From Methanofollis aquaemaris (GTDB taxonomy: Archaea; Halobacteriota; Methanomicrobia; Methanomicrobiales; Methanofollaceae), in NCBI RefSeq assembly GCF_017357525.1, contig NZ_CP036172.1, forward strand, positions 1,462,561 through 1,526,560: 64,000 nucleotides of DNA, read 5' to 3'. Below are positions 1,894 through 58,804 of the stretch, one piece after another. Under the pieces are notes generated by a model. It made no database searches. It was not told the DNA's origin and worked only from the letters and a program-made list of their open reading frames with translations. Made by a program: the position numbers and the translations under genes. How positions within the stretch are numbered: the first letter of the stretch is position 1; every line of letters starts with the position of its first letter.

Positions 1894-2226
1894 GGACCCT
1901 GTAGAATTTGACATACACCCCGGGCTCAAGCATCCGTGATGAAAATTTCTCGTTGCAGTTCTCCCGAATGCGGAGGGATACTTGATTCCTCTCCTCGCAA
2001 CAGGGCACCTGAAGGATACTGTTCAATTGCCGCCCCTCGGCCATCTTCATCCATGGGGGGTCCGGGGGCAACGCCCCCCGGCGCAAGAAGGCGGTGAAGA
2101 ATCTTTGGTCGGGGCAGCGATTGAGAGAGTTCAAGGATCCTTCCACACTCCAAAACGCTGCTCAGAACAATGTTCATACGACATGCCTGAGGCATGCTCC
2201 CGACTCATGCCCGATTCTACACAACC
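1894..2226. repeat. dispersed modular repeat, copy 1 (both ends present)
   Basis: A non-coding 333-bp block between the preceding gene and glmM. The left end reads GGACCCTGTAGAATTTGACA and the right end, read in reverse, GGTTGTGTAGAATCGGGCAT, so the ends are imperfect inverted repeats; similarity continues inward (GGCTCAAGCATCCGTGATGAA versus a related stretch). The middle holds a GC-rich hairpin around 2055-2085 (GGGGGTCCGGGGG... CCCCCCGGCG). The left end is shared with copies at 28381, 30806 (reverse) and 53218; the right end is shared with 58804 for over 100 bp. The structure resembles a MITE or a structured-RNA repeat. Confidence 0.8.
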
Positions 2227-25247: not shown

Positions 25248-26012
25248 TCAGGCTCTGAGGGCGTCGGCCACGAGGGTCGCGGCCCGTTCGCCGGAGAGGA
25301 GCATGCCGCCAAAGATGGGACCCATCCGGCACTCGCCCGCGACGGCGTTGGCGGCCATGCCGCAGACCCAGAGGCCGGGGAAGACTTCTCTGGTGTGGTC
25401 GACAATCCTGGTCTCGGCCCGCTCGGCCCACATGTAGCCCTCGCCTTTGATCGCGAGGTCGGCACCCTTGCGGGCGACCATGTGGGAGATGGTGGCGTCG
25501 TGACCGGTGGCGTCGACGACGGCGCGGCACCTGATGGTGAGGGGGTCGACGTGGAGGCCGGCCATCTCGACCGGGCTCCAGTTGATGACCAGGCCGGAGA
25601 CGCGGCCGTCGCCCTTGACGACGACGTCTTCGACGGCGATGAGGTTAAAGAACTCGGCGCCGGCGGTGCAGGCGCCGGCAGTGAGTTTGGAGACGGCCTC
25701 CACCGACTTCGCGACATGGTAGCCCGACTCGAACTCGGCCGAGACGATGCCAAAGTGATCGAGGAGGTGTTTTGCGCTGTCCTGGACGACGATCCTGGGG
25801 AACATCATCCCGCCGCCCCACATGCCCCCGCCGATGGAGAGTTTCTTCTCAATGAGCGCTACCTTGAGGCCGTTCTCGGCAAGAAGCGCGGCGCAGGCGA
25901 TCCCCGAGGGTCCGCCGCCGACGACCGCGACGTCGAGGTCGAGGTACTCGGTCATTGTCTCCATCTGGGTGGCCAGGATCGCCCTGCTGATTGTCACTTC
26001 ATCGAGTTCCAT
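25248..26012 (-). CDS. thi4: sulfide-dependent adenosine diphosphate thiazole synthase
   Basis: Builds the thiazole moiety of thiamine from NAD, glycine and sulfide. About 254 residues with an FAD/NAD-type dinucleotide fold: VAVVGGGPSGIACAALLAENGLKVALIEK at the N-terminus, GGGMWGGGMMFPRIVV, DATGHDATISHM, and GPIFGGMLLSGERAA at the end. No suicide cysteine is visible at the yeast Thi4 position, consistent with the catalytic, sulfide-using archaeal type. The ATG at 26012 (MELDEVTISRAI) is preferred to upstream in-frame starts. Confidence 0.9.
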   Translation of the reverse strand: MELDEVTISRAILATQMETMTEYLDLDVAVVGGGPSGIACAALLAENGLKVALIEKKLSIGGGMWGGGMMFPRIVVQDSAKHLLDHFGIVSAEFESGYHVAKSVEAVSKLTAGACTAGAEFFNLIAVEDVVVKGDGRVSGLVINWSPVEMAGLHVDPLTIRCRAVVDATGHDATISHMVARKGADLAIKGEGYMWAERAETRIVDHTREVFPGLWVCGMAANAVAGECRMGPIFGGMLLSGERAATLVADALRA

Positions 26013-26126
26013 CGCTTCCACTTCGCAGAACAGATAGGGCATCACCCTACAAATAGCCACTCTCCGGCAGGGGTAAAGACAGAGGTATTATGAAGAGGGA
26101 AGGTACAGTGAATATCTGATAGTAAT

Positions 26127-27011
26127 ATGAAATGGAAGCGTGATCTGGGGCTCACGATGAGACAGATTATGACCTGGGCACTCCTGCTCCTGGTCTATCT
26201 GGTCTTTCTCACGATCCTCGGAACTTTGTTCGGTGTCGGGCCGTGGACGCTCATCGGTATCGCCTTCGTGATAGCGTTCGCTCAGTATTTCTTCTCGGAC
26301 AAACTGGTGCTGATGAGCACCGGGGCCCGCGAGGTGTCGCCCGAGGAGTATCCCGTGCTCCACGACGTGGTGGAGAAACTGGCCGCCGAGGCCGGGATCC
26401 CCAAGCCGCGGGTCGCGGTGATGCCCACCCCGGTCCCGAACGCCTTTGCGACGGGGCGGAGCCCGAGCCATGCGGTGGTCGCGGCGACCGATTCGATCCT
26501 GCGTCTGCTCACCCGCGATGAACTCGAAGCGGTGCTTGCCCATGAGATTGCCCATGTGAAGAACCGAGACGTGATGACTCTCACCATTGCGAGTTTCCTT
26601 GCGATGGTGGCGGCGATCATCATGCAGAACGCCTGGCTCTTCTCCATCGCGGACCGCCGGGAAGGGGGCGCATGGATGGCCGCATGGGCCGTCTCCATCG
26701 TCGTCTGGATCGTCTCCACGCTGTTGATCAGATCGCTCTCCCGGTACCGGGAGTTCGCGGCGGACCGCGGCAGCGCATACATCACGGGGAACCCGAAGGC
26801 GCTCGTCTCCGCGCTCTACAAGATCAGCGGACGGATGGACATGGTGCCTGCCGAGAAGAGGAGAGAGGTCGAGGGGGCAAACGCCTTCTTCATCCTCCCG
26901 GCCATCTCGGGCAACACCCTGATGGAGCTCTTCTCCACCCACCCGACCCTGGAGAAGCGGGTGGAGGCGCTTGAGGCGCTCGAAGAAGAAGTCCGGTATA
27001 TGCCGAGGTAA
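26127..27011 (+). CDS. htpX: zinc metalloprotease HtpX
   Basis: 294 residues, M48-family membrane protease of protein quality control. Two N-terminal membrane segments span about residues 15-55; the zinc motif HEIAH is in LEAVLAHEIAHVKNRDVMTL near residue 138; two more hydrophobic segments follow, then REFAADRGSAYITGNP with the third zinc ligand, and a C-terminal FSTHPTLEKRVEALEAL. The 5' region is AT-richer and holds a plausible promoter around 26085-26125. Confidence 0.93.
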   Translation: MKWKRDLGLTMRQIMTWALLLLVYLVFLTILGTLFGVGPWTLIGIAFVIAFAQYFFSDKLVLMSTGAREVSPEEYPVLHDVVEKLAAEAGIPKPRVAVMPTPVPNAFATGRSPSHAVVAATDSILRLLTRDELEAVLAHEIAHVKNRDVMTLTIASFLAMVAAIIMQNAWLFSIADRREGGAWMAAWAVSIVVWIVSTLLIRSLSRYREFAADRGSAYITGNPKALVSALYKISGRMDMVPAEKRREVEGANAFFILPAISGNTLMELFSTHPTLEKRVEALEALEEEVRYMPR

Positions 27012-27079
27012 CCCCTCGGGCAATACCATTTTATCTTCAGGGCGCGAATATTGTAAGGTATTCCCATACGGAATGCAAC

Positions 27080-27150
27080 GCATCGATGGTCTAGTGGTAT
27101 GACTTTGGCCTTCCAAGCCAATAGCCCGGGTTCAATTCCCGGTCGATGCA
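27080..27150 (+). tRNA. tRNA-Gly (TCC)
   Basis: A 71-nt cloverleaf. The acceptor stem GCATCGA pairs with TCGATGC, the anticodon stem TTGGC/GCCAA encloses the loop CTTCCAA with anticodon TCC, and the T-arm has GGTTCAATTCC. No intron is seen and CCA is not encoded. Confidence 0.95.
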
Positions 27151-27290
27151 TCGCTTTTGAAAAGATTGTTCTGAGCAGAGGAGCGCAGGCTTGTGCGCGG
27201 TTTCCGGTTCGTGCACGGAGCGAGGTGGTTGGCGGCACGGCGCCGGGAAGAAGATTTATTACCGCCCTGCACCTACCTATATAAGGACAC

Positions 27291-27364
27291 GGGCTCGTGG
27301 TCTAGCTGGTTATGACGTCGCCTTCACACGGCGGAGGTCCTGAGTTCGAATCTCAGCGGGCCCA
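27291..27364 (+). tRNA. tRNA-Val (CAC)
   Basis: A 74-nt cloverleaf. The acceptor stem GGGCTCG pairs with CGGGCCC (with G-T pairs), the anticodon stem TCGCC/GGCGG encloses the loop TTCACAC with anticodon CAC, and the T-arm has AGTTCGAATCT. A TATA-like CTATATAAG sits at 27278-27286 just upstream. Confidence 0.95.
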
Positions 27365-27646
27365 CTTATCTTGCCATTTTTACAGATTTAGACCGATTCC
27401 ACCATTACATTTGTTTGAAGATCGTACGTAGCGTTATCGGCCAATTGTCCAGTTCTTGGAGATCTATATTCTGGAACAAGTAATTCTCCGATTACATTGG
27501 GGCATGCCTCCGTTTCTGAACTCTATAGATTACAGCCGTTTTCGCTTTTTCCTCCTCGTTTCATATCTCTCATGTCCCCGATAGATCAATGAATATATCA
27601 GAGATGGCATCTACGCTGTACAACATATCCTGGCGGTGGAACAGCG
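27365..27646. other. AT-rich non-coding gap downstream of tRNA-Val
   Basis: No convincing gene is seen. The base composition drops sharply compared with the upstream 27 kb, which marks the edge of an accessory region. I found no second copy of the tRNA 3' end to act as an attachment site. Confidence 0.5.
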
Positions 27647-28345
27647 ATGGGGACCGACATAAACCTCTGTGTTGAGATCAAAGGAAGAAATGATGACGAG
27701 TGGAGACCGATCCTGGTTCCCAATCCCTACTATGACAAGGCCAACCTGGAATCAAAGCCTTACTCCCCGTCCAGAATGTACAATATACGAAACTCCGATC
27801 TGTTCGCGATATTGGCTGGCTTGGGAAACAGGACAATCAGTCCCAGTGGCGACAAATACGACAAGTTTACCATAATCTCCGAGCCGCGAGGTCTGCCTCC
27901 CGACGTTTCGCAGGAAGTCAGGGAAGAGCACGAGACGCTTTTGAAGGGTTACGATGGATGGGATGAGGAGGACTTCTATACATCGTGGCTTACGATCGGT
28001 GAGATCCTTGCTTTCGACTGGGACCAGTTTGTGACAATCAAGATCAACGTCAGTGAAAAAAACTATCTGAATATCATGAACGATAGGCCATTGGTTTATG
28101 ATGGTGATCTAGACCTGCATAAAATCAGGAATATCTCTCGATCCGAGATGGACCGGATCATCAAGGGAGAAATTCCCAGGGAGGAGGGCACTTTTTACTA
28201 CTCACTTATTGAAAAAGATATAACCTACCGCGAGCGCGTCGGCCCATTTCTAGAATTTTGCGAATACCTCGACTTCCAATTCAGTACTGGCAGCAATGCT
28301 GAGCGGGGCTCGAACGTCAGGCTCGTTTTCTGGTTTGATTTCTGA
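27647..28345 (+). CDS. uncharacterised protein of a phage/mobile-element-associated type
   Basis: 232 residues. The start MGTDINLCVEIK, then YNIRNSDLFAILAGLGN, PRGLPPDVSQEV and SWLTIGEILAFDW recall a family of uncharacterised proteins found in bacteriophages and bacterial genomes (MGTDIH... SRNYDLFAILA... PRGLP...SWL). No membrane segment or catalytic motif is recognised. The gene is AT-richer than the genome and lies just after tRNA genes, consistent with horizontal transfer. Function unknown. Confidence 0.7.
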   Translation: MGTDINLCVEIKGRNDDEWRPILVPNPYYDKANLESKPYSPSRMYNIRNSDLFAILAGLGNRTISPSGDKYDKFTIISEPRGLPPDVSQEVREEHETLLKGYDGWDEEDFYTSWLTIGEILAFDWDQFVTIKINVSEKNYLNIMNDRPLVYDGDLDLHKIRNISRSEMDRIIKGEIPREEGTFYYSLIEKDITYRERVGPFLEFCEYLDFQFSTGSNAERGSNVRLVFWFDF

Positions 28346-28380
28346 ACGCATCGATAATGATAGTAAAAAAACCATTTTTT

Positions 28381-28600
28381 GGCTCTGTAGAATTAGGCAT
28401 GAACGTGGGGTTCGAGCATACGTGATGAAAATTTCTCGTCACTTGCTCTCTCTCTCTTTTCAAGACAGGAGAATCGGTGGGGATCGTATTCCATCGCCGC
28501 CCCCACCATCTTCGGTCCGTGGGGGGTCTCGGGGGGTGAAACCCCCTCGGCGCGAGATGGCAGGGAAATCTCGACGATGGGGGGCGGCTGATCCATGAGA
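28381..28600 (+). repeat. dispersed modular repeat, copy 2 (left end and hairpin module)
   Basis: Starts GGCTCTGTAGAATTAGGCAT right after a T run and continues with GAGCATACGTGATGAAAATT, a CT-rich stretch, then the GC-rich hairpin near 28505-28550 and GCGCGAGATGGCAGGG. It aligns over about 200 bp with the reverse complement of copy 3 (30806 downward). No matching right end is visible; the boundary near 28600 is approximate. Confidence 0.75.
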
Positions 28601-29080
28601 AGAATTTTCTATCCTCTGTGTATTGGCTTCAACGTGATATGACGAGTTCAAACTCTTATGCAAACCTGAAGAGAGGATCTTCGGGATCATTTTTCCATGA
28701 AAACCCCATTGAAATCAGAAATAGAATTCAATGTGTCGGTTTTCATTGGTTCAACTTGAGGCTCTTGCCTCATGCTGTTTCATGGTAAACCCTCATTTTT
28801 TTGGTTCGAGTATGATTCAACCTCCTTCCTCTATCTTCACACCCCCCGGCGAAGAGAATGATCGAGAGGATTTTTACAAAACCTTAGGAACCTTATTCAC
28901 TGATGTTCTCGATATCTCGAATGTTTAAATGAGTCTTTAAATAAATAATAACCAGAAATTGGGAAAAAATTCATAAGGGTTTAATATGTACATATATTCC
29001 CCAGGCATATTATAAAATAAAGGATTTTAATGACATTCAAAAGAGAATTCGTGCAAGATGATCACGTCGGAGGCCGTACT
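28601..29080. other. AT-rich gap before hflX
   Basis: No supported gene; a 65-codon open frame at 28731 has no recognisable features. The last 120 bases are strongly AT-rich (TTTAAATAAATAATAACC around 28930-28960, TATTATAAAATAAAGG near 29008), suitable as promoter for hflX. Confidence 0.5.
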
Positions 29081-30328
29081 ATGAAAAAAACTATTGTTGT
29101 CCAGCGAAATGATCCAGATACCGATGCTGCTACCAATTCGCGGAAGCTGGCAGAACTCAAGGAGTTAGCACATGCTGCGGATTATGTGGTTGTTGGCACA
29201 TTTGTGCAATCAATATATCCTAACAGGAAATACCAGATAGGTCCCGGGAAAGTGGATGACCTTGCAGGGCTTGTGGAATCTCTGGATGCTGAAAAAGTAA
29301 TTTTTAACAACCAGCTGTCAATGACGCAGATCTACAATATCTCTGAGACGTGCAAATGTGAAGTAATGGACAGGTTCCAGCTTATTCTTGAGATATTTGC
29401 TGCAAGAGCCACTACAAGACGTGCAAAACTACAGGTAGAACTTGCGAAATTACGATATGAACATCCTAAAGCAAGATCTATTGTTTCCCTGCAGAAGAAG
29501 GATGAAAGGCAGGGCTTTATGGGTCTTGGAAGTTATGAGGATTCTTATGAGCAGGATATTAAGAAAAAGATCGTAAGAATCAGGACCGAACTTCTTCAGC
29601 ATGGAAATGGGAGCGAGTCACTTCGCAGTTTCAGGCATGAAAGAGGATTTTCCCTTGTAGCTCTGGCAGGTTATACGAATGCGGGAAAAAGTACTCTTTT
29701 CCAGTCACTTGTAGAGGAAGAGACAGTAGTCAAGGACATGCTCTTTACGACACTATCTCCTACCACACGTTCTCTCATGGTTAATAACAGAAAAATGCTT
29801 CTGACCGATACTGTGGGATTTATCGAAGACCTCCCACACTTGATGGTGGATGCGTTCAAGTCAACGCTTGATGAGATATTCCTGGCCGATATCATTCTTC
29901 TTGTGGTGGATATGAGTGATCCGGTGGATATTATCAGACAAAAACTGGCTGTCAGTCATGATATCTTCGGGGAGAGAGCAGACGGTGTTGTGATCGTTAC
30001 TGCTCTTAACAAGGCCGATCTTCTTTCTGATGAAGAACTGCAGGAAAAAATGGAAGTGATCAGTGATCTTGCTCCTGCTCCTGTCATGATATCTGCAAGA
30101 TCAGGAGAAGGTCTTGACGAACTTAAACGGGTTCTCTATGAGAACCTTCCTGAATGGGAACATTGCAGGATATCTGTCCCGATGTCCGAAGAGGGTATAT
30201 CCATGGTATCGTGGCTTTATGATGAAGGCATTGTGCACACGATCGAGTATGGGGATGCTATTCGCATGGAAATAGAAGCAAGGGATGAAATAATTCAAAA
30301 AGTGAAGCCTTTCGCCATGTATTCTTAA
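29081..30328 (+). CDS. hflX: GTPase HflX
   Basis: About 415 residues. A ribosome-associated GTPase; the N-terminal HflX domain has YQIGPGKVDDLAGLVE and FNNQLSMTQ, followed by a coiled segment (RAKLQVELAKLRYE) and the G domain with ALAGYTNAGKSTLF, LLTDTVGFIEDLP and ALNKADLL. The ATG at 29081 follows GGAGG with normal spacing; an upstream in-frame ATG at 29030 lacks such a site. Its codon use is much AT-richer than the surrounding genome and resembles Methanosarcinales, suggesting recent transfer from such a donor. Confidence 0.93.
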   Translation: MKKTIVVQRNDPDTDAATNSRKLAELKELAHAADYVVVGTFVQSIYPNRKYQIGPGKVDDLAGLVESLDAEKVIFNNQLSMTQIYNISETCKCEVMDRFQLILEIFAARATTRRAKLQVELAKLRYEHPKARSIVSLQKKDERQGFMGLGSYEDSYEQDIKKKIVRIRTELLQHGNGSESLRSFRHERGFSLVALAGYTNAGKSTLFQSLVEEETVVKDMLFTTLSPTTRSLMVNNRKMLLTDTVGFIEDLPHLMVDAFKSTLDEIFLADIILLVVDMSDPVDIIRQKLAVSHDIFGERADGVVIVTALNKADLLSDEELQEKMEVISDLAPAPVMISARSGEGLDELKRVLYENLPEWEHCRISVPMSEEGISMVSWLYDEGIVHTIEYGDAIRMEIEARDEIIQKVKPFAMYS

Positions 30329-30434
30329 TAATGTTCACAGAAAATTCATCGATTGCCAGATGAGTGAGATAAAGCAGGTTTTGCACTACTTCAGAGCACT
30401 CTGCCAGACTATCCCTGCGTATGCCGATCATCCT

Positions 30435-30806
30435 GAACACCGGTTTGACGGTGGGGCTCGCCGCCCCCCGATCCCCTGGCGTCACGATAGGTCGTGGACT
30501 GCAACGCACCCGTCATGGTCATCCATTCTGCCTTCCCGATCCTATCTTGATCCAGGGGCCCGGTGGCCGCGCCCCCGGTGAAAGGGTAAGGGAAGGCGTG
30601 ATGATCAAAACGTGCCGCCCTCAATCGTTAAATCTTCACCGCCGTCTCGCGCCGGGGACAAGTGCCCCCACGACGATGATAAGTGGGGCAGCGATGGAAC
30701 AAGATCCCCATCGGTTCTTCAGTCTTGAAAAGAGAGATCAAGCGACGAAAAATGTTCATCAGGTATGCTTGAGGCACCCTCTCACTTCATGCCCAATTCT
30801 ACAAAG
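30435..30806 (-). repeat. dispersed modular repeat, copy 3 (reverse orientation)
   Basis: Read on the minus strand from 30806: CTTTGTAGAATTGGGCATGA, then GCATACCTGATGAACATTT, a CT-rich stretch as in copy 2, the hairpin GGGGGCACTTGTCCCC followed by GGCGCGAGACGGCGG, then GGGCGGCAC...GATCATCACGCCTTCCC and a second hairpin ending GATAGGATCGGGAAGGC. The latter part matches copy 5 at 53446-53545. The far border near 30435 is approximate. Confidence 0.75.
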
Positions 30807-30839
30807 TAAATTCATCAAAATCCTTCTCCCTTTTGTATT

Positions 30840-31283
30840 TTGATAAATACGAATCCCGCTGTGGGTTCAAATGAAGCCGGATATCGCTGGCTGAAAAATT
30901 TCCTGGGTGACGCCTTCAATGTAATTCGTGTGCCACTGGTGCCTGAGATTCTCCATCTTGACTGTGTGCTTTCGGTTCCCAGAACGGGTCTTGCAATCCT
31001 ATGTCCTGAAGCGTTTGCAGAAGGCATCCCGAAAGTGCTTGAAGACTTTGATACAATATCGGTTTCTCTGGAAGATGCCTCAAGGCTGGCTGTCAATGGT
31101 CTGCCCGTTGATGAAAGTCATTACATCATGTCCTTCAACGATCACAACGACAATGAATATATCAGGGAAGAATTGGAAAAACGGGGAATTTCTGTTTATC
31201 CGGTGTATTTCGGGGTTCACAACGGACAGGGCGGAAGTCTGCGGTGTGCAACCCAGGCACTGATTCGCAGGCGTGAACAATAA
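30840..31283 (+). pseudogene. truncated amidinotransferase/dimethylargininase-family gene (C-terminal half)
   Basis: 147 residues match the C-terminal half of the guanidino-group-modifying superfamily: a catalytic-type histidine in EILHLDCVLSV, then NGLPVDESHYIMS, IREELEKRGISVY and the catalytic cysteine region GGSLRCATQAL. The N-terminal half with the substrate-binding Asp/Arg residues is absent. The coding sequence begins about 30 bases from the end of repeat copy 3, so the 5' part was probably lost with or near the insertion. The region is AT-richer than the genome. Confidence 0.75.
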
Positions 31284-31475
31284 TCAGTGATGAGGGAAGT
31301 CTTCGTACGGCAAAGAACAGGATCGCGAAGCCATGACCGAAACCAACTCCTCCGGGGTTTACGAAAATTGTGCGGATCCTCGTCTTATTACTTGCCGGAC
31401 GTCTTCGATCGACCTACAACTCAATACACGATACAGGACTTCGAACAGAGGTTGTGGGAATACGGGATCCCCCCA

Positions 31476-31976
31476 TCACACCACTTCGAGCACTTTCCCG
31501 ACCACGGACTCAAGATCCTCACCCGAAGACGCAACGGTGAGATCGGCATACCTCTCGTAGAGCGGGACCCGCCAGTCGTACATCTCGCGGAGACTCTGGC
31601 CCGGGAGGAGGAGTAAACCCCGGGTCGTGATGTTCTTGAGCCTCTTTGCCATCTCGTCATACGAGATCTCGAGGTACACAACTACCCCTCCGGCCTTCAG
31701 GTGCGCCATCGCATCTTCGCTGCACACCACGCTGCCGCCCGTCGCGATCACCGCATGGCCGGGGTGAAGGGAGAGGATCGTCTCCTCCTCGATCCGCCCG
31801 AACGCATCCGGCCCGTCCTCGTCGAGGATCTCCTGCAGCATCCTTCCGGTCCGTTCCTGGATCAGGATATCGGTATCGATGAACTGGATGCCGAGGGATT
31901 TTGCAAGGATGACGCCCACGGTGCTCTTCCCCGCACCGGGCATGCCGATGAGGACGATGTTTTTGTGATAATGCAT
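31476..31976 (-). CDS. aroK: shikimate kinase, AroK/P-loop type
   Basis: 166 residues. P-loop GMPGAGKSTVG near residue 11, shikimate-binding FIDTDILIQERTG with the key Asp, GRIEEETIL (Arg position), ATGGSVV, and a lid region before RVPLYERYADLTV. This is the bacterial nucleoside-monophosphate-kinase fold, whereas most archaea use a GHMP-type shikimate kinase. No other aromatic-pathway gene is adjacent. It might act on another small substrate; the family call is secure. Confidence 0.82.
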   Translation of the reverse strand: MHYHKNIVLIGMPGAGKSTVGVILAKSLGIQFIDTDILIQERTGRMLQEILDEDGPDAFGRIEEETILSLHPGHAVIATGGSVVCSEDAMAHLKAGGVVVYLEISYDEMAKRLKNITTRGLLLLPGQSLREMYDWRVPLYERYADLTVASSGEDLESVVGKVLEVV

Positions 31977-32270
31977 ACGGCTCTCCCGGGACCCGGTGGA
32001 CTCAAGGCCCCTCTATTGGTACCCGGGATGGGATCCTGGGGGGGATGAAGGTTTTGTCCCGGAAAATGAGTGCGTCCTGCAGGGATACCTGTACAGGAGG
32101 GCAGAAGAGGGAGACGGCTCTCCGTCGTGTATCGCATGCAGGGGAGGGGGCGCCCGGTCCCATTTTTACACATCTCTGGTGCATGGTCAGTGCTCAGGGG
32201 TGCAGATCCGCCATCGTCGCCGGGCGGGTCAGTGGGGGTATGCCCCCGGGTATCGGGAAGAAAAACATCT
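31977..32270. other. gap with GC-rich hairpin upstream of the flavin reductase gene
   Basis: No supported gene. The stretch is open in the frame of the following gene but lacks homology. A short hairpin GGGGG-TATG-CCCCC sits at 32234-32247, about 25 bases before the presumed start, where it could affect translation. Confidence 0.4.
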
Positions 32271-33110
32271 ATGTATGAGACATCCCTCTCCTCCTCCATG
32301 GAAAACCGACCCCTGAAAGTTCTCGTCATTATGGGCAGCCCCCGCAGGGCAAATACCTACCACGCAGCCGAACGGATCCGCGAGATCCTCCAGGAGAACG
32401 CACCGGTGGACTGGGAATATGTCATGCTGCGGGACGTCAGCCTGGAGCAGTGCCGCGGGTGCTATACCTGCTTCGAGCGGGGGGAGGAGCACTGCCCGAT
32501 CAAGGACGACGCAGCCCTTCTTGAGCGGAAGATGCACGACGCGGACGGAGTAATCTTTGCCACCCCGGTATATGGTTTCCAGGTCTCGGGATTGATGAAG
32601 GTCTTCATCGACCGCCATTCCTATATCTTTCACCGGCCCCGGTTCTTCCGGCAGAAGGCGCTTCTCCTCACCAGCGCCGGAGTGATGGGGAACAAAGACG
32701 TGCTGGAGTACCTCAACGCCGTGGCCCGCATATGGGGCTTTGAGGTTGCCGGCCGGGCGGGGATCACCTCCCACGCGACCATGGGCCCCCTCCCTGCCTA
32801 CCGGCTGTGGGAGAACGAAGAGAAGTTGCAGGCGGCGGCAGGGGCCTTTCTCGCCGCACTCCGGAGGGGAACGCGCTCAAAACCGGGATTCTTCGACGTG
32901 ATGGCGTTCCATATCGGGAGAGCCCCCTGCGATGAGTTAGGCGAACGGTCTCCTGCGGATCACGCCTACTGGACCGACCGGAGGTGGCTCCAGAAGGGAA
33001 GACGCTATTATGTGGATGTGCCGGTCAATCCTGTCTACCATGCACTCGGCACGCTCGCGGAATGGTACATGCGGCGGCAGATACGAAAGGATCTGAGGGA
33101 AATCGGTTGA
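32271..33110 (+). CDS. flavodoxin-fold NADPH-dependent FMN reductase family protein
   Basis: About 279 residues. The first 180 are the flavodoxin-like fold with LVIMGSPRRANTYHAAERI (FMN phosphate loop), CRGCYTCFERGEEHCPIKDD (the Cys motif of iron-sulfur flavoproteins and related reductases) and FATPVYGFQVSGLMKVFIDR. About 90 residues after the fold are unrecognised, with aromatic-rich HAYWTDRRWLQKGRRYYVD. Start choice is uncertain: ATG at 32271 or ATG at 32298. It probably handles electron transfer or quinone/flavin reduction; the partner is unknown. Confidence 0.83.
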   Translation: MYETSLSSSMENRPLKVLVIMGSPRRANTYHAAERIREILQENAPVDWEYVMLRDVSLEQCRGCYTCFERGEEHCPIKDDAALLERKMHDADGVIFATPVYGFQVSGLMKVFIDRHSYIFHRPRFFRQKALLLTSAGVMGNKDVLEYLNAVARIWGFEVAGRAGITSHATMGPLPAYRLWENEEKLQAAAGAFLAALRRGTRSKPGFFDVMAFHIGRAPCDELGERSPADHAYWTDRRWLQKGRRYYVDVPVNPVYHALGTLAEWYMRRQIRKDLREIG

Positions 33111-33284
33111 ACCGGGGCAGATGCAGAAGATGAGAAGGGCTTGCTATGATCACTACGGAATGAGGCGTGGTATGAGTCATGGAACTCCTCGAAGAGGCGG
33201 GCTTTGTTCCATCGCGGACTTCAATTCTTAACGAGAATCAAATCGGCATTAAGACTAATTCAAATAGCAAACACAAAAGGAGTT

Positions 33285-33986
33285 ATGGAAAAGAAATACT
33301 TTCAAATTCATGGGATTCCAGCAATTCTCTGGGGTTCCCGCTCAAATAAATTATATCTATACATACACGGACAGGCCGGGCGTAAAGAAGAAGCTGAAGC
33401 GTTTGCTCATATAGCCTGTCATTATGCGTGGCAAGTTTTGAGTATCGACTTGCCCGAACATGGAGAACGCACAAGAGAAACAAATTCATTTGACCCGTGG
33501 CACGTCGTGCCAGAACTATTGTCTGTTATGGAATATATCAAAGGCCGGTGGACACACATTTCTCTATTTGCGAACAGCATTGGTGCATGGTTCAGTATAT
33601 TGAGTTTTGAAAACGAACAGCTGGAAAAAAGCCTTTTTGTTTCCCCTATTCTTGATATGAAACAACTTATTTCCAATATGATGCTCCGGGCAAATGTATC
33701 GGAAACAGAGCTTGAGCGTGAACGTATTATCACCACTTCCTCTGGACAAACTCTTTCGTGGGAATATCTCCTCTATGCTCAAAATCACCCGATTACACAA
33801 TGGGAGGTTCCAACAGCAATATTGTATGGCGAGCATGACGAACTTACCGATCATACTGTTGTAGAAAAATTTGTGCAACATTTTCATTGCAATCTAACTA
33901 TTATGAAAAACGGGGAACACTGGTTTCATACCTCAGAACAATTGGAGGTCTTAAATTATTGGATCAAAACGTGCCTTCGAGAATAA
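33285..33986 (+). CDS. alpha/beta hydrolase
   Basis: About 233 residues. LYLYIHGQAGRKEEA carries the oxyanion-type HG motif, LFANSIGAWF holds the nucleophile Ser in a variant GxSxG (N-S-I-G), ILYGEHDELTD gives the acid and NGEHWFH the catalytic His. The ATG at 33285 has a strong AAAGGAG site; the frame extends upstream without homology. It is markedly AT-rich and looks bacterial, so it is probably acquired. The substrate is unknown. Confidence 0.83.
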   Translation: MEKKYFQIHGIPAILWGSRSNKLYLYIHGQAGRKEEAEAFAHIACHYAWQVLSIDLPEHGERTRETNSFDPWHVVPELLSVMEYIKGRWTHISLFANSIGAWFSILSFENEQLEKSLFVSPILDMKQLISNMMLRANVSETELERERIITTSSGQTLSWEYLLYAQNHPITQWEVPTAILYGEHDELTDHTVVEKFVQHFHCNLTIMKNGEHWFHTSEQLEVLNYWIKTCLRE

Positions 33987-33990
33987 ACTA

Positions 33991-34482
33991 TCAAAACCCC
34001 TCCCCCTTCCTCAATTTGACAGAGATCCCCTGCACAACGATCCTGCTCATGATCTCTTCCCGCAACCGCTCAGGGAGCCTTCCCGACTGCCAATCCCGCT
34101 CCCCGGCAACATCACCCCCGACCGCCGCGACAACTTTCAGGGCATAGTACGCCGCCCCGTAGGCGTGCTGCGGGACATGCGCAGTCGCCACCGCCTGGCC
34201 TGCGGCACGCGCCGCAAAACAGGCCGCGTCATTCTCTTTCGCCTCGCGGGCGGCGGCATGAGCGGCAAGAGAAGCGCCGCGGATCTCGGCCATCCTGAAC
34301 ACGCCCGTACGGACCCATCTCCGACACGTTTCGATGGCATGACGCGGCCGTTCGTCTCCCGGATATGCACGCTCAAAATATGGAAGCACCCGCTCTGCGC
34401 AGTCCGCGGCCCAGGTCGCCATCGAGATCTGATCTTCCCTGCGGTATTTTTTCACAAACAATTTTTGGGCTTTGTAAATCAT
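33991..34482 (-). CDS. putative immunity protein (Imm5-like)
   Basis: About 163 residues, all-helical and alanine/histidine rich. ATWAADCAERVLPYFERAYPGDERPRHAIETCRRW, LAAHAAAREAKENDAACFAARAAGQAVATAHVPQHAYGAAYYALKV matches the pattern of the Imm5 immunity-protein family predicted to neutralise polymorphic toxins. No toxin gene is visible nearby. The ATG at 34482 is taken as start because the first 34 residues of the longer frame are low in conserved features. It runs convergently with the AT-rich hydrolase gene, five bases apart. Confidence 0.75.
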   Translation of the reverse strand: MIYKAQKLFVKKYRREDQISMATWAADCAERVLPYFERAYPGDERPRHAIETCRRWVRTGVFRMAEIRGASLAAHAAAREAKENDAACFAARAAGQAVATAHVPQHAYGAAYYALKVVAAVGGDVAGERDWQSGRLPERLREEIMSRIVVQGISVKLRKGEGF

Positions 34483-34551
34483 TGTGATGGTTCTCTTCGA
34501 CGGGAGGAAGACGGACGTCCGGATCGACGACGACGATCCCGACCCTTTCAC

Positions 34552-34833
34552 CTTCGCGCCCGGTTTACACCCCGCGGGTGGCAACGTGACGACCGAGGGA
34601 AAAAGCCGATCATGACCTGGATCTGTGTACAGAGTACATAGAGAGAAGTGTGTACAGGTACCCCTGATAATTTACACACGATCCGGAGAACACCCGGCAC
34701 CGGTGAGAAGGATAGGTCCCCGGTCGTGATCCGGGCGCGAGTGAAAACGACCGTGAGTACGCCGCATGCATGCTCAGATCGTCGAACGACGGTTGGCCGG
34801 CGAGAGATCTCCGGGTGTAAACCGGGCGCGAAG
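34552..34833. repeat. segment bounded by a 21-bp perfect inverted repeat
   Basis: CTTCGCGCCCGGTTTACACC(C) at 34552-34572 recurs as its exact reverse complement at 34813-34833, bounding 282 bp. Inside are two TGTGTACAG direct repeats (near 34623 and 34648) and no gene. It may be a small mobile or rearranged unit and ends 20 bp before the next repeat. Confidence 0.6.
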
Positions 34834-34853
34834 AAGAAAAATAGATCTCTAGA

Positions 34854-34900
34854 TCTGTAGAATCAGGCATGAACCCGAAGATCATGCCGAATTCTCCAGA
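34854..34900. repeat. 47-bp mini-derivative of the dispersed repeat (two ends only)
   Basis: TCTGTAGAATCAGGCATGA at 34854-34872 faces an inverted copy (16 of 19 bases identical) at 34882-34900 with nine bases between. The sequence matches the left end of the large repeat copies, so it looks like an internal-deletion derivative or a solo end pair. Confidence 0.7.
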
Positions 34901-34951
34901 ACCGAATAAACCGGTTGGAGCCGGGATTCGTTCTCCCGGCCCCTTCCGATC

Positions 34952-36424
34952 CTAACCCGTCGGATCGAACTTTATGGCCCGGTCGTACACGATCTCGTTG
35001 TAGGACGGCCCGGTTTTCGTAGCATTCTCCAGGTAACTCCTCCAGATAATGTAGAGCGGCTGGTCAGGCTCGATGCCGTAACTTCCTATACCGGAGGGAA
35101 CCTCGAAGCAGTGCGGGTCACCCTCGCAATCCCTCGCGATCGTGTAGACATACAGGTACTTCGCATTGGGATTGTCAGGGAGGTACTCCTCGGCAGTCCC
35201 GCTGAAGTCCGCGTCGGTGATCGATCCGACGCCGTTCCACACATCCGCTCCATATAAGGAGAAGCTCGAGTACGTCGCCTTGCCCGTGGCTACGTGGTTG
35301 ACCCCGTAGACGATGATGAACTCATTCGTATCATTGCCGAGGGTGAGCGGCGGGTTTCGCAGGAAGTCGTAGTACTGCGTGGTGTCGAAGAAGGGCGGCG
35401 TCGGCGAATTGACAGTCTGGTTCGCGCTCCATAAATACGCGGCATCGTTGCTCGGCCCCACTCCATCGATCCCCCGCTGGATAGCATCATTCCCCATCGG
35501 GAAGCCGATACTCGTCGGAAGCTCCGTGGCAGTCAGGTTGCCGTGTTTCTCAAGAATCGCGTTCCTGAGATCTTCGAGATCGTCGGTAAGGTCAAGTTCC
35601 GTCTTCCCGGTTCCCCGGACTCTCAGTTCCGGGTACCCGTACGGATCGAGTTCTGTCGTGTTTTTCGGCGTCACGCGGAAGACAGTCGCAGGAGTGTTGT
35701 TGATGTACTCAGCACCGGCCTCCTTGTCGGCGAAAAGGGCCGGGCGGATAAATAGGCCGAACGTATCTGAGTCGTTTTCGAGGCCCAGGTTCAGGACGGA
35801 TGAGGGAAACACCTGGGTGTTCATCATGCCGTCCGAATATCCTGCCGATCGAGCGGCGGCACGGACGCGCTCGTCAATGCCCCTGTCGGCCGTGGCGACG
35901 ATCATCGTCGTCCGGTTGAACGGATCTCCCGACCCTCCGTTCGTGTTGATGACCTTGTTGTTCAGCGAATCGGCGATGTTGGAAAAGATCCACCTGGTCT
36001 CGGTTCCATACGTCCTGCTCATGAGATAATTATCGTACCCGAAGTACCTGCACTCCGGCGGCGTCTGTCCTACGAAAACAACGGCTTCGTTGGGACCGAG
36101 ATTCCAGAAGGAAGATGTGTTCCCGCTCATTCCAAGCGTTTTCGCAATTTCTGCTATCCGCTCGTCGACCGGATAGCCGGGTGCCGGTGGAACGAAATAC
36201 GCCAGATACTTTGTGGCGGGATTGTTTCCATATGCAGAAGGCATCACCCCTGAATCATAGAGTTTGATGAGATCGAAATACCCGATCTCGCCTTCCTGCA
36301 CGATGAACCCGTCCTCTTCTAACGCTTTCTGGAACGCGTCCACGTCACCTGTTTCTCCAGTCTGTGCAAGGCCATGCCCTACCAGCATGGCCACGAGTAC
36401 TGCAAAGAGGATGTACCGTCTCAA
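34952..36424 (-). CDS. exported, sequon-rich protein of unknown function
   Basis: 490 residues. A signal peptide is clear (MRRYILFAVLVAMLVGHGLAQ), and there is no further membrane anchor, so the product is secreted or loosely cell-bound. At least nine N-X-S/T sequons (for example NTSS, NRTT, NDSD, NLTA, NQTV, NDTN, NATK) make it a likely AglB substrate. The mature part has no motif I recognise; cysteines are few (CRYFGY, DCEGDPHC). Its context, beside deaminase and repeats, gives no functional hint. Confidence 0.75.
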   Translation of the reverse strand: MRRYILFAVLVAMLVGHGLAQTGETGDVDAFQKALEEDGFIVQEGEIGYFDLIKLYDSGVMPSAYGNNPATKYLAYFVPPAPGYPVDERIAEIAKTLGMSGNTSSFWNLGPNEAVVFVGQTPPECRYFGYDNYLMSRTYGTETRWIFSNIADSLNNKVINTNGGSGDPFNRTTMIVATADRGIDERVRAAARSAGYSDGMMNTQVFPSSVLNLGLENDSDTFGLFIRPALFADKEAGAEYINNTPATVFRVTPKNTTELDPYGYPELRVRGTGKTELDLTDDLEDLRNAILEKHGNLTATELPTSIGFPMGNDAIQRGIDGVGPSNDAAYLWSANQTVNSPTPPFFDTTQYYDFLRNPPLTLGNDTNEFIIVYGVNHVATGKATYSSFSLYGADVWNGVGSITDADFSGTAEEYLPDNPNAKYLYVYTIARDCEGDPHCFEVPSGIGSYGIEPDQPLYIIWRSYLENATKTGPSYNEIVYDRAIKFDPTG

Positions 36425-36569
36425 ACTCTTCCCCCCTCTGCGGGTGGAATACCATCCGGATGAGAAAAAGTTTTGGTTGTTTCCCGGCCCGACCGCTCGA
36501 CCCCCTCAATTTCGGCGACCGGAATGTTCATGGGCCGCCACGCACTCTCTCTATCCGGGTGTCGCTTCA

Positions 36570-37010
36570 ATGGATGAATTCATGCAGGCCGCCATCGAAG
36601 AAGCCAGAAAGGGACTGAACGAAGGCGGGATCCCCATCGGCTCGGTGCTGGTGATCGACGGTACGATCGTCGGTCGGGGACACAATCGCAGGGTGCAGAA
36701 GGGCAGCGCCATTTTACACGCCGAGATGGACTGCCTGGAAAACGCGGGCCGGCTCAAGCCCGGCGATTACCGTCGGGCGGCGCTGTACTCGACGCTTTCC
36801 CCCTGCGATATGTGCAGCGGTGCAGTCCTCCTCTACAAAATACCTCGGGTCGTGATCGGCGAAAACCGGACATTCCAGGGACCGGAGGAGTATCTCCGTT
36901 CGCGGGGCGTCGAAGTGGTCGTCCTGGACGATGAGGAGTGCGTGCGGATGATGTCGGAGTTCATTGCCGAGAATCCGGAGGTGTGGGACGAGGATATTGG
37001 GGAGGAGTAG
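36570..37010 (+). CDS. cytosine deaminase, yeast FCY1-like
   Basis: 146 residues of the zinc-dependent cytidine/cytosine deaminase superfamily: HAEMDC with the zinc His and catalytic Glu, and SPCDMCSG with the two zinc cysteines. The pattern EGGIPIGSVLV...GRGHNRRVQKGSAILHAE...LYSTLSPCDMCSGAVLLYKIPRVVIGEN and the ending WDEDIGE strongly recall yeast cytosine deaminase. The ATG at 36570 is used; the longer frame upstream overlaps the exported-protein gene on the other strand. A paralogue lies at 41201-41638. Confidence 0.87.
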   Translation: MDEFMQAAIEEARKGLNEGGIPIGSVLVIDGTIVGRGHNRRVQKGSAILHAEMDCLENAGRLKPGDYRRAALYSTLSPCDMCSGAVLLYKIPRVVIGENRTFQGPEEYLRSRGVEVVVLDDEECVRMMSEFIAENPEVWDEDIGEE

Positions 37011-37091
37011 AGAGATCATACCTTTTCGGGAGGAGGACGCCCCCGATAATCGAAGATACGAATCGAACTTTTCAGTGGGAAGTGCCCTGAA

Positions 37092-53217: not shown

Positions 53218-53740
53218 GGCTCTGTAGAATCGGGCATGAACCGAGCGCCCGCTTCAAGCATACCGGATGAAAATCTATATCGCAGTCCCCCAGGGTGCGG
53301 AAGGATCAATCCATGATCCCCCGTCCTTGAGACAGGGCAACGGTCAGAAATCTCTCGGCCTTGCCGCTCCCGCCTATCCTCTGTCCGTGGGGGGCCCGAG
53401 GGGCACCCGCCCCCCGGCGCGAGACATCTGGAAAATATCTGTAATGGGGGCGGCACATCCGATCATCACGCCTTCCCACATCAATCGCGCCGGGGGCGCT
53501 GCCCCCGGACCCCCGGGATGAAGATAGGGTCGGGAAGGCATCATAGATGCTCCTGAAGGTGGGGTTGTCGCCCCGGTCCTATCAGTCAGGCGGGGGGAGC
53601 GGGGGCGGCCAGAAATTGATCGCCCTGCCGCCCCCATCCTGTCTTCGTCCTGGGGCCGGGGGGCAAGGCCCCCCGGCGCGAGACAGCGATGAAGATTCTT
53701 CGAGGGGGCGGCCCCCTCAATCCCCCGGAGTCCCCACGTC
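53218..53740 (+). repeat. dispersed modular repeat, copy 5 (left end, several hairpin modules)
   Basis: Starts GGCTCTGTAGAATCGGGCAT right after the por terminator. Then come GCATACCGGATGAAAATC, a hairpin near 53390-53420 ending GGCGCGAGAC, GGGGGCGGCAC...GATCATCACGCCTTCCC (53446-53476), a second hairpin (CCGGGGGCGCTGCCCCCGG near 53489) with GATAGGGTCGGGAAGGC, and a third GC-rich hairpin around 53650-53680 followed again by GGCGCGAGACAGCG. The internal module GGCGCGAGAC occurs twice, so this copy is extended or tandem. No gene seen; the right border is approximate. Confidence 0.75.
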
Positions 53741-58479: not shown

Positions 58480-58804
58480 GGCCGGCCCCCCGATTCCCCG
58501 CACGGACCGGGGGGGCAGAGAACAAGAACACCCTCTGAACGGTCACCCCAATCTTCATCCCTGGAGTCCGGGGACAGCGCCCCCGGCACGATTCGTGCGG
58601 GAAGGCACGTCGATCAGAAGGGCCGCCCCAAAAGACCGATCTGAACCTGCCGCCTCTCGCCGGGAGGCGGCGGTTAAGTGGTGCCCTTCTCGCCTTCTTT
58701 GCTGAGAGAGGGATCAAGGATCCTCCACACCTCGAAACACTACTCAAAACAATGTTCAATCGCGTATGCTTGAGGCCGGGGTTCATGTCTGATTCAACAG
58801 AGCC
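58480..58804 (-). repeat. dispersed modular repeat, copy 6 (reverse orientation)
   Basis: Read on the minus strand from 58804: GGCTCTGTTGAATCAGACAT, then GCATACGCGATTGAACATTG and a stretch ending GGATCCTTGATCCCTCTCTC that aligns with the right end of copy 1 (2226 downward). Further on are CGTGCCTTCCC, a hairpin GGGGGCGCTGTCCCC (near 58575-58590) and GATGAAGATTGGGG, as in copies 3 and 5. The far border is approximate. Confidence 0.75.

Follow-up and report, generated by a model that had tools for sequence, protein, structure and literature searches.

A 53-bp palindrome in Methanofollis aquaemaris as the probable footprint of a MITE-like element

A short palindrome in the genome of Methanofollis aquaemaris is, on balance, probably the footprint that an old MITE-like element left on losing its interior in situ. 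It lies at positions 34851–34903 of the 64,000-nucleotide stretch analyzed here (the window) and consists of two facing repeat ends with nine bases between them. The solo is most likely a decay product of an ordinary kind from an abundant group of MITE-like elements. The repeat belongs to an archaeal MITE-like group of Methanofollis that is defined by a terminal core (GGCTCTGTWGAAW), a target duplication, and its end types, and open-access literature searches did not bring up a description of this group.

The palindrome and its family of ends

The geometry described in an earlier note on this DNA, a 19-bp end and an inverted copy nine bases apart at 34854–34900, was confirmed: the arm at 34854–34872 (TCTGTAGAATCAGGCATGA) is identical at 16 of 19 positions to the reverse complement of 34882–34900. 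The full unit, which encloses these 47 bp, measures 53 bp (34851–34903) once the four outer bases of the family ends are added on each side. In the window, these outer bases read AGAT...AACC and depart on both sides from the family pattern GGCT...AGCC. The left outer arm, CTGTAGAATCAGGCATGA (34855–34872, plus strand), matches the 18-bp L-end motif without mismatches, and the right outer arm, CTGGAGAATTCGGCATGA on the minus strand (34882–34899), matches it with one mismatch; the spacer between them is ACCCGAAGA (34873–34881). The 53 bp fold at −22.6 kcal/mol (z −4.2), and none of 200 shuffled sequences folded as well. The flanks of the window solo agree at only two of eight positions, so no target duplication is seen around it.

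The L-end motif is common in this organism and its relatives. With up to three mismatches it occurs 8 times in the window, against a mean of 0.18 and a maximum of 2 in 100 shuffles. The single-contig genome of 2,746,416 bp has it at 200 places, against 5 for the pattern read backwards. Among eleven other genomes of the genus, searched with up to two mismatches, nine have the motif in at least five places, one has it in one place, and one has none. Viral contigs gave no exact match to the L end. Pairing of the L-end places in the genome covered 191 of them, those among the matches listed, and missed some; many L ends look single in part because the partner is often an end of another type, termed R here.

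The motif scan also places L ends elsewhere in the window. Two (1899–1916, plus strand, with three mismatches, and 2205–2222, minus strand) are the left and right ends of a likely element at about 1895–2226. Two others, at 53222–53239 (plus strand) and 58783–58800 (minus strand), are each followed by an inner arm of the family type. A further two, at 28385–28402 (plus strand) and 30787–30804 (minus strand), face each other 2.4 kb apart (28381–30806) around a gene for an hflX-like GTPase (29030–30328; Pfam GTP-bdg_N, E 1.9e-26). G+C content is 42–47% in this stretch versus 59–62% at 26000–27000 and 31500–33000, and it is also low at 33000–34000. The collinear stretch of the Methanofollis genome G005 has no nucleotide match to the hflX-like gene, and 28381–30806 may be a pair of ends that carried a cargo gene.

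A complete L end has two arms. The outer arm (GGCTCTGTWGAATYNGGCATGA) is followed, usually after 9 or 14 nt, by an inverted and related inner arm (TCAAGCATACGNGATGAAAAT). The four bases outside the motif are commonly GGCT, as judged from 58 L ends read with their flanks; among the 69 ends with a spacer of 9, the G, G, C, and T were found in 62, 58, 54, and 63 cases, respectively. In 1.2 Mb from the genomes G000, G005, and G009, an outer arm lay upstream of 50 of 56 inner arms and was absent from 6, while under the same loose rule 117 of 4000 random 47-bp windows held an outer arm. The spacers of these 50 L ends were 9 (25 ends), 14 (17 ends), or another value from 10 to 15 (8 ends), so 42 of the 50 fall in the two main classes. 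A set of 162 distinct L-end sequences, which includes a few from another genus, divides into 69 of the 9 class, 44 of the 14 class, 16 with other spacers, and 33 unclassed, the arms of solos being among the last. In many of 38 listed pairs of cores, the opposite end or both ends belong to the R type (GGCTCTGTAGAAAYC and similar). The 19-bp end of the earlier note is of the L type, and at least one further type, R, shares its core.

The same architecture is found in another genus of the order (G163, G164, G167, G176, and G192; loci L191–L195, L204, L206, and L211–L218), with ends of the form GGCTCTGTWGAAACRGGCATGA and inner arms resembling TTCACACCCGAAC..ATGAAAAT. Perfect 8-bp duplications flank two of these loci, L192 and L194. 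In a further genus, locus L182 (genome G081, about 1420–1522) has an L end with a tandem duplication of the 38-bp unit of outer arm, spacer, and inner arm.

The immediate surroundings of the palindrome are also rich in repeats. A dispersed repeat of about 350 bp, called B here (34507–34863, plus strand), runs with its right edge into the left arm and is also present elsewhere in this and related genomes, with several places in G000, G005, G003, G009, and others. It contains 27-bp inverted stretches (34546–34572 and 34813–34839) that are 93% identical. At least eight further copies in G000 and G005, among the matches listed, continue into CTGTAGAAT of an element end, indicating a recurrent junction. 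On the other side of repeat B, a degenerate terminal core, GGCTTTGTAAAT (34468–34479, plus strand; GGCTTTGTAGAAAT in G001), looks by eye as if it could mark one end of a further element of the group. The protein encoded at 33991–34584 on the minus strand, which adjoins the repeats, matches the Pfam family Imm5_like of putative immunity proteins (E 1.2e-41). An Rfam scan of 27000–37000 found two tRNAs that reach the gathering score and one further match below it.

Transposition of the family and candidate enzymes

The evidence that the family has transposed is strong and comes from 8-bp target duplications together with 8-bp gaps between back-to-back elements. Inward-facing terminal cores (GGCTCTGTWGAAW, up to two mismatches) lying 45–2600 bp apart were paired in the fetched DNA, giving 105 distinct pairs. 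Perfect 8-bp duplications flank 24 of them, compared with 0.33 expected from shuffles, and duplications matching at 7 or more of 8 positions flank 37, compared with a mean of 1.26 and a maximum of 5 in 1000 shuffles. Of these 37 pairs, 31 are from Methanofollis and 6 are from other genera of the order. The mean flank match across all 105 pairs at a width of 8 is 4.46 versus 2.54 in shuffled data. Width 9 also exceeds the shuffles (3.10 versus 2.57), widths 6, 7, and 10 do so slightly, and width 5 does not; a match with no more than one mismatch was found for 37 pairs at width 8, compared with 0 to 5 at the other widths. In 7 of 26 cases, neighboring elements placed back to back leave a gap of exactly 8 bp between them, and in three 400-kb regions there were 4 gaps of 7–9 bp between adjacent elements where 0.29 were expected. 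Empty sites obtained by comparing 400 kb of G000, G005, and G009 were for the most part ragged and did not define a boundary cleanly; the pairing test did so.

The 37 elements with a duplication at 7 or more positions are 207–1260 bp long, and the longest stop-free frame in the 38 listed pairs spans 65–189 codons, as measured by frame length alone. The family thus shows the features of MITEs: it is short, has terminal inverted repeats with the core GGCTCTGTWGAAW on both sides, duplicates 8 bp of target, and has no transposase gene found inside. The proposal of the earlier note that the ends rather than the hairpins define the mobile unit is supported, since the 8-bp duplications abut the core; the 19-bp end that it had in mind is just one of the end types involved.

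The search for the mobilizing enzyme covered two transposase families. For IS6, no match to the transposase (PF13610) was found in 12 Methanofollis genomes, and at 13 IS6-type loci from other genera of the order no facing pair was shown to be their ends. Two of these 13 loci have a single match to GGTTCTGTTAACTTG nearby, and one of the two, L255, also has a single match to TGCTCTGTAGAAA. Derivation from an IS6/IS26 element was rejected on these grounds, with no transposase of that family in the genus and no paired ends at the 13 loci. For IS1595, no match to the transposase (PF12762) was found in the same number of Methanofollis genomes, and none of 30 loci had a facing pair of GGCTCTGTWGAAW-type cores with a duplication above 4 of 8, so IS1595 was likewise rejected as the mobilizing family. 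Ends were detectable at 5 of the 30 loci and begin GGTGATT, GGTAATT, or GGCGATT. Five IS1595-family insertion sequences of the order (L270, L277, L278, L283, and L289) have GGTGATT-like ends and perfect 8-bp target duplications and measure 895–1059 bp. A search of the fetched DNA for a coding element with the ends of the present family and an 8-bp duplication gave no candidates.

The orthologous site and the origin of the palindrome

The orthologous site could be compared among the window and the genomes G001, G005, G008, G009, and G010, in which both flanks are traceable; the comparison leaves aside G002, G003, G004, G006, G007, and G011, where the search did not show the two flanks joined. 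The right outer arm is recognizable in all six loci. The window and G009 each have a solo of 53 bp. In G005, the site holds 447 bp (439 between the outer edges of the arms) with an L outer arm on each side; its left end is canonical, with an inner arm matching at 20 of 21 positions and a spacer of 9, and its right inner arm is nonstandard (11 of 21). G008 and G010 have 205 and 204 bp, respectively, with a right L outer arm accompanied by an inner arm matching at 18 of 21 positions at a spacer of 5, and a left end that looks R-like by eye and has no L-type inner arm (11 of 21). In G001, no left end was found, and the right L end has an inner arm of 18 of 21 at a spacer of 9. Apart from G008 and G010 with each other, the interiors in G005, G008/G010, and G001 share at most one 12-bp match (E 0.006), and several elements or swapped interiors may have been present at the site. 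The flanks agree at 2 of 8 positions in the window, 1 of 8 in G005, and 1 of 8 in G008, indicating no target duplication in any of them.

The window and G005 align in two BLAST pieces that overlap by exactly 8 bp at CATGAACC. In the window (34868–34875, plus strand), this sequence takes in the final five bases of the left arm and the initial three of the spacer, and compared with the longer copy the window copy is joined at this direct repeat; in G005, it lies on the margin of the left outer arm and recurs in the right inner arm. The window loop, ACCCGAAGA, matches the right loop of G005 (ACCCAAAGA) at 8 of 9 positions and its left loop (ACCTAACGC) at 5 of 9. Both observations fit a deletion that ran from the left outer arm to the right inner arm. 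The junction resembles that of nearly precise excision in falling at a short direct repeat that both ends of the longer element at this site contain.

Such a deletion can be pictured from the architecture of the ends. Because the two arms of each L end are in inverted order, an element bounded by two L ends has short direct repeats in its left outer and right inner arms. Slippage or misalignment between these arms during replication, favored by pairing of the inverted ends, could delete the interior between the repeats. The left outer arm, the right loop, and the right outer arm would remain and form a palindrome whose loop, of 9 or 14 nt, is that of an end. We infer that the longer state came first and that its interior was removed by replication slippage or a similar process. 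Full ends appear to be the simpler ancestral state because the left end in G005 (20 of 21) and the right end in G001 (18 of 21) are near canonical at a spacer of 9. Two details count against deletion: the right inner arm in G005, which the deletion would have used, matches at just 11 of 21 positions, and the inner arm in G008/G010 stands at a spacer of 5 rather than 9 or 14. The suggestion of the earlier note that the palindrome is an extreme internal-deletion derivative is thus retained as the most likely reading, in light of the longer orthologs in G005, G008, and G010 and the junction at an 8-bp repeat, with the direction of change resting on the comparison of species.

The order of events could also be reversed, with the solo palindrome being older and the longer elements having inserted into its loop or grown from it, such that the repeat of CATGAACC in G005 is a target duplication. 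The repeat in G005 is exactly 8 bp, as the family duplicates on insertion, the interiors in G005, G008/G010, and G001 are unlike one another, and the two lineages with the solo do not group as sisters in the right-flank tree. This history is nonetheless unlikely, given that CATGAACC is largely part of the conserved end, that ends of the family type with a spacer of 9 in G005 (left) and G001 (right) would not be expected from insertion at a random point, and that inner arms seldom travel alone, 50 of 56 having an outer arm in place.

A third route to a palindrome is template switching at one end, with inverted copying of the right outer arm instead of a deletion between ends. Positions 4 and 10 of the left arm in G009 equal its own right arm and differ from the left arms of the window and G005, a pattern of quasipalindrome correction, and in G008/G010, where the left end is R-like, an L arm at that position could be secondary. 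The left arms of the window and G005, however, are identical and depart from the respective right arms at three positions, and the left L end in G005 is complete and canonical, inner arm included. Template switching is therefore quite improbable as the source of the palindrome.

The distribution of the solo state bears on how often the favored deletion would have occurred. On the right-flank tree, the window and G005 are sisters (95/94), as are G008 and G010 (97/96), and G009 is weakly placed elsewhere; neither the left-flank tree nor the repeat B tree resolves the window, G005, and G009. The scattered solo state on the right-flank tree implies either two deletions or exchange between species. 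Exchange is plausible because the window (30851–37020) and contig C1 of G009 (375689–381859) are 89.6% identical over 6.2 kb, compared with an average of about 77% for pieces longer than 1 kb in a 400-kb region. From this identity, the 6.2-kb stretch is likely to reflect exchange between species.

The palindrome might instead persist because it works as a hairpin, either as an operator or as an RNA 3′-end signal for a 490-aa gene whose minus-strand coding sequence ends at 34952 (closest named relative of the protein 92% identical, from Methanofollis sp. STE_20). The sequence folds well, as noted above, it lies about 50 bp past the stop codon of that gene, and the G009 solo folds at −20.7 kcal/mol versus −17.4 for a 45-bp form of the window palindrome. 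A terminator scan, on the other hand, placed no site in the palindrome and gave a single hit at 34911–34924 (plus strand), a number no greater than shuffled sequences can give (one against a mean of 0.5). In the arms of 113 L ends (69 with a spacer of nine and 44 of fourteen), compensatory change beyond shuffles was found at one of 20 pairs tested, the pair 19–32 of the 14 class, and selection for the hairpin has no support other than the good fold; an A-A mismatch is present in 60 of the 69 ends of the 9 class. The finding of a solo at this site in G009 fits in part with conservation of the 47 bp in relatives as a terminator or operator, which the earlier note had named as refuting its reading, but the five other genomes show four different states at the site. 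The palindrome accordingly does not look like a conserved operator, and a working hairpin is a highly unlikely explanation.

Solo palindromes elsewhere in the genus help to distinguish a footprint from a mobile unit. An open search of 12 genomes for facing arms with spacers of 5 to 20 found six solo places in three genomes, where a reversed control found 0. In the genome of the window, solos are few compared with the hundreds of related repeat ends. Five of the six have a spacer of 9 and one has a spacer of 14, as predicted if a deletion leaves one end's loop of 9 or 14 nt. When the ends were relaxed, 11 facing pairs of 45–70 bp were found; 8 of them measure 53 or 58 bp, as spacers of 9 and 14 would give, and the other three are 56, 60, and 63 bp. 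A looser scan of three regions gave 17 facing pairs, many of which do not resemble real ends, with a spacer of 9 in five, 14 in one, and other values in the rest. At the site of one G005 solo (1041764), G003 and G001 have L ends and G000 has nothing; at that of another (524756), G000 is empty and G003 has other elements.

The 53-bp palindrome might itself be the minimal mobile unit and transpose as such, since both outer arms are present and several solos occur in G000 and G005. Target duplications of 6 or more of 8 were found at none of 10 solos (values 2–5), as opposed to 47 of the 105 end pairs (six of the 105 are short), and the listed solos differ in arms and loops and are not copies of one another. 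Transposition of the 53 bp is hardly credible in view of these findings, and the idea of the earlier note that the 47 bp are a mobile or mobilizable unit is not borne out. Because no duplication was found, the solos do not appear to be products of a transposing 53-bp unit, and the 53 bp look like a footprint.

A more active role for the palindrome can be imagined in which the 53- or 58-bp form is the basic building block of the family. Every L end would be a solo whose inner arm became fixed as a separate conserved site, elements would be pairs of such units, and a dedicated enzyme would restore solos by recombining left outer and right inner arms in an end-resolution reaction. Such an enzyme would account for the open search having found only spacers of 9 and 14. 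We regard this proposal as very doubtful.

Comparison with known systems

The ends of the family resemble those of IS6/IS26 elements. The end consensus of bacterial IS6/IS26 is GGCTCTGTTGCAAA, close to the GGCTCTGTTGAAW of the family, and a target duplication of 8 bp is general for IS6. Ends of the IS6/IS26 type likewise start with GG and have a G at position 7, and an 8-bp duplication is mentioned for IS6 (PMC6807381). In contrast to IS6/IS26, the family described here is found without an IS6-type transposase in 12 Methanofollis genomes. The IS1595 family also has an 8-bp target duplication in common with it, and its detected ends begin with GGTGATT, GGTAATT, or GGCGATT.

As a group, the elements are most readily compared with prokaryotic MITEs (PMC10969869), which are likewise short, with terminal inverted repeats, target duplications, high copy number, and no transposase gene found inside. 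The present group differs from these in that a single core carries two or more types of end (L and R) and that no parent insertion sequence was found for it with the two transposase families tried. Seen together, these loci offer a natural record, from the species of one methanogen genus, of the possible decay of miniature elements into palindromic footprints. This suggests that short intergenic palindromes in such genomes should be checked for an origin as footprints before they are called operators or terminators.

The nearest known process is the nearly precise excision of Tn10. There, the interior is lost between short direct repeats in the ends, and a remnant of two ends of about 50 bp is left behind. 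On the deletion reading, the palindrome would share with it the loss of an interior between direct repeats located in the ends and the two-end remnant. It differs in that the process in Methanofollis is deduced from the comparison of species alone and in that the element and the organism are unrelated. Nearly precise excision has been described as copy-choice recombination between short direct repeats (PMC12524634).
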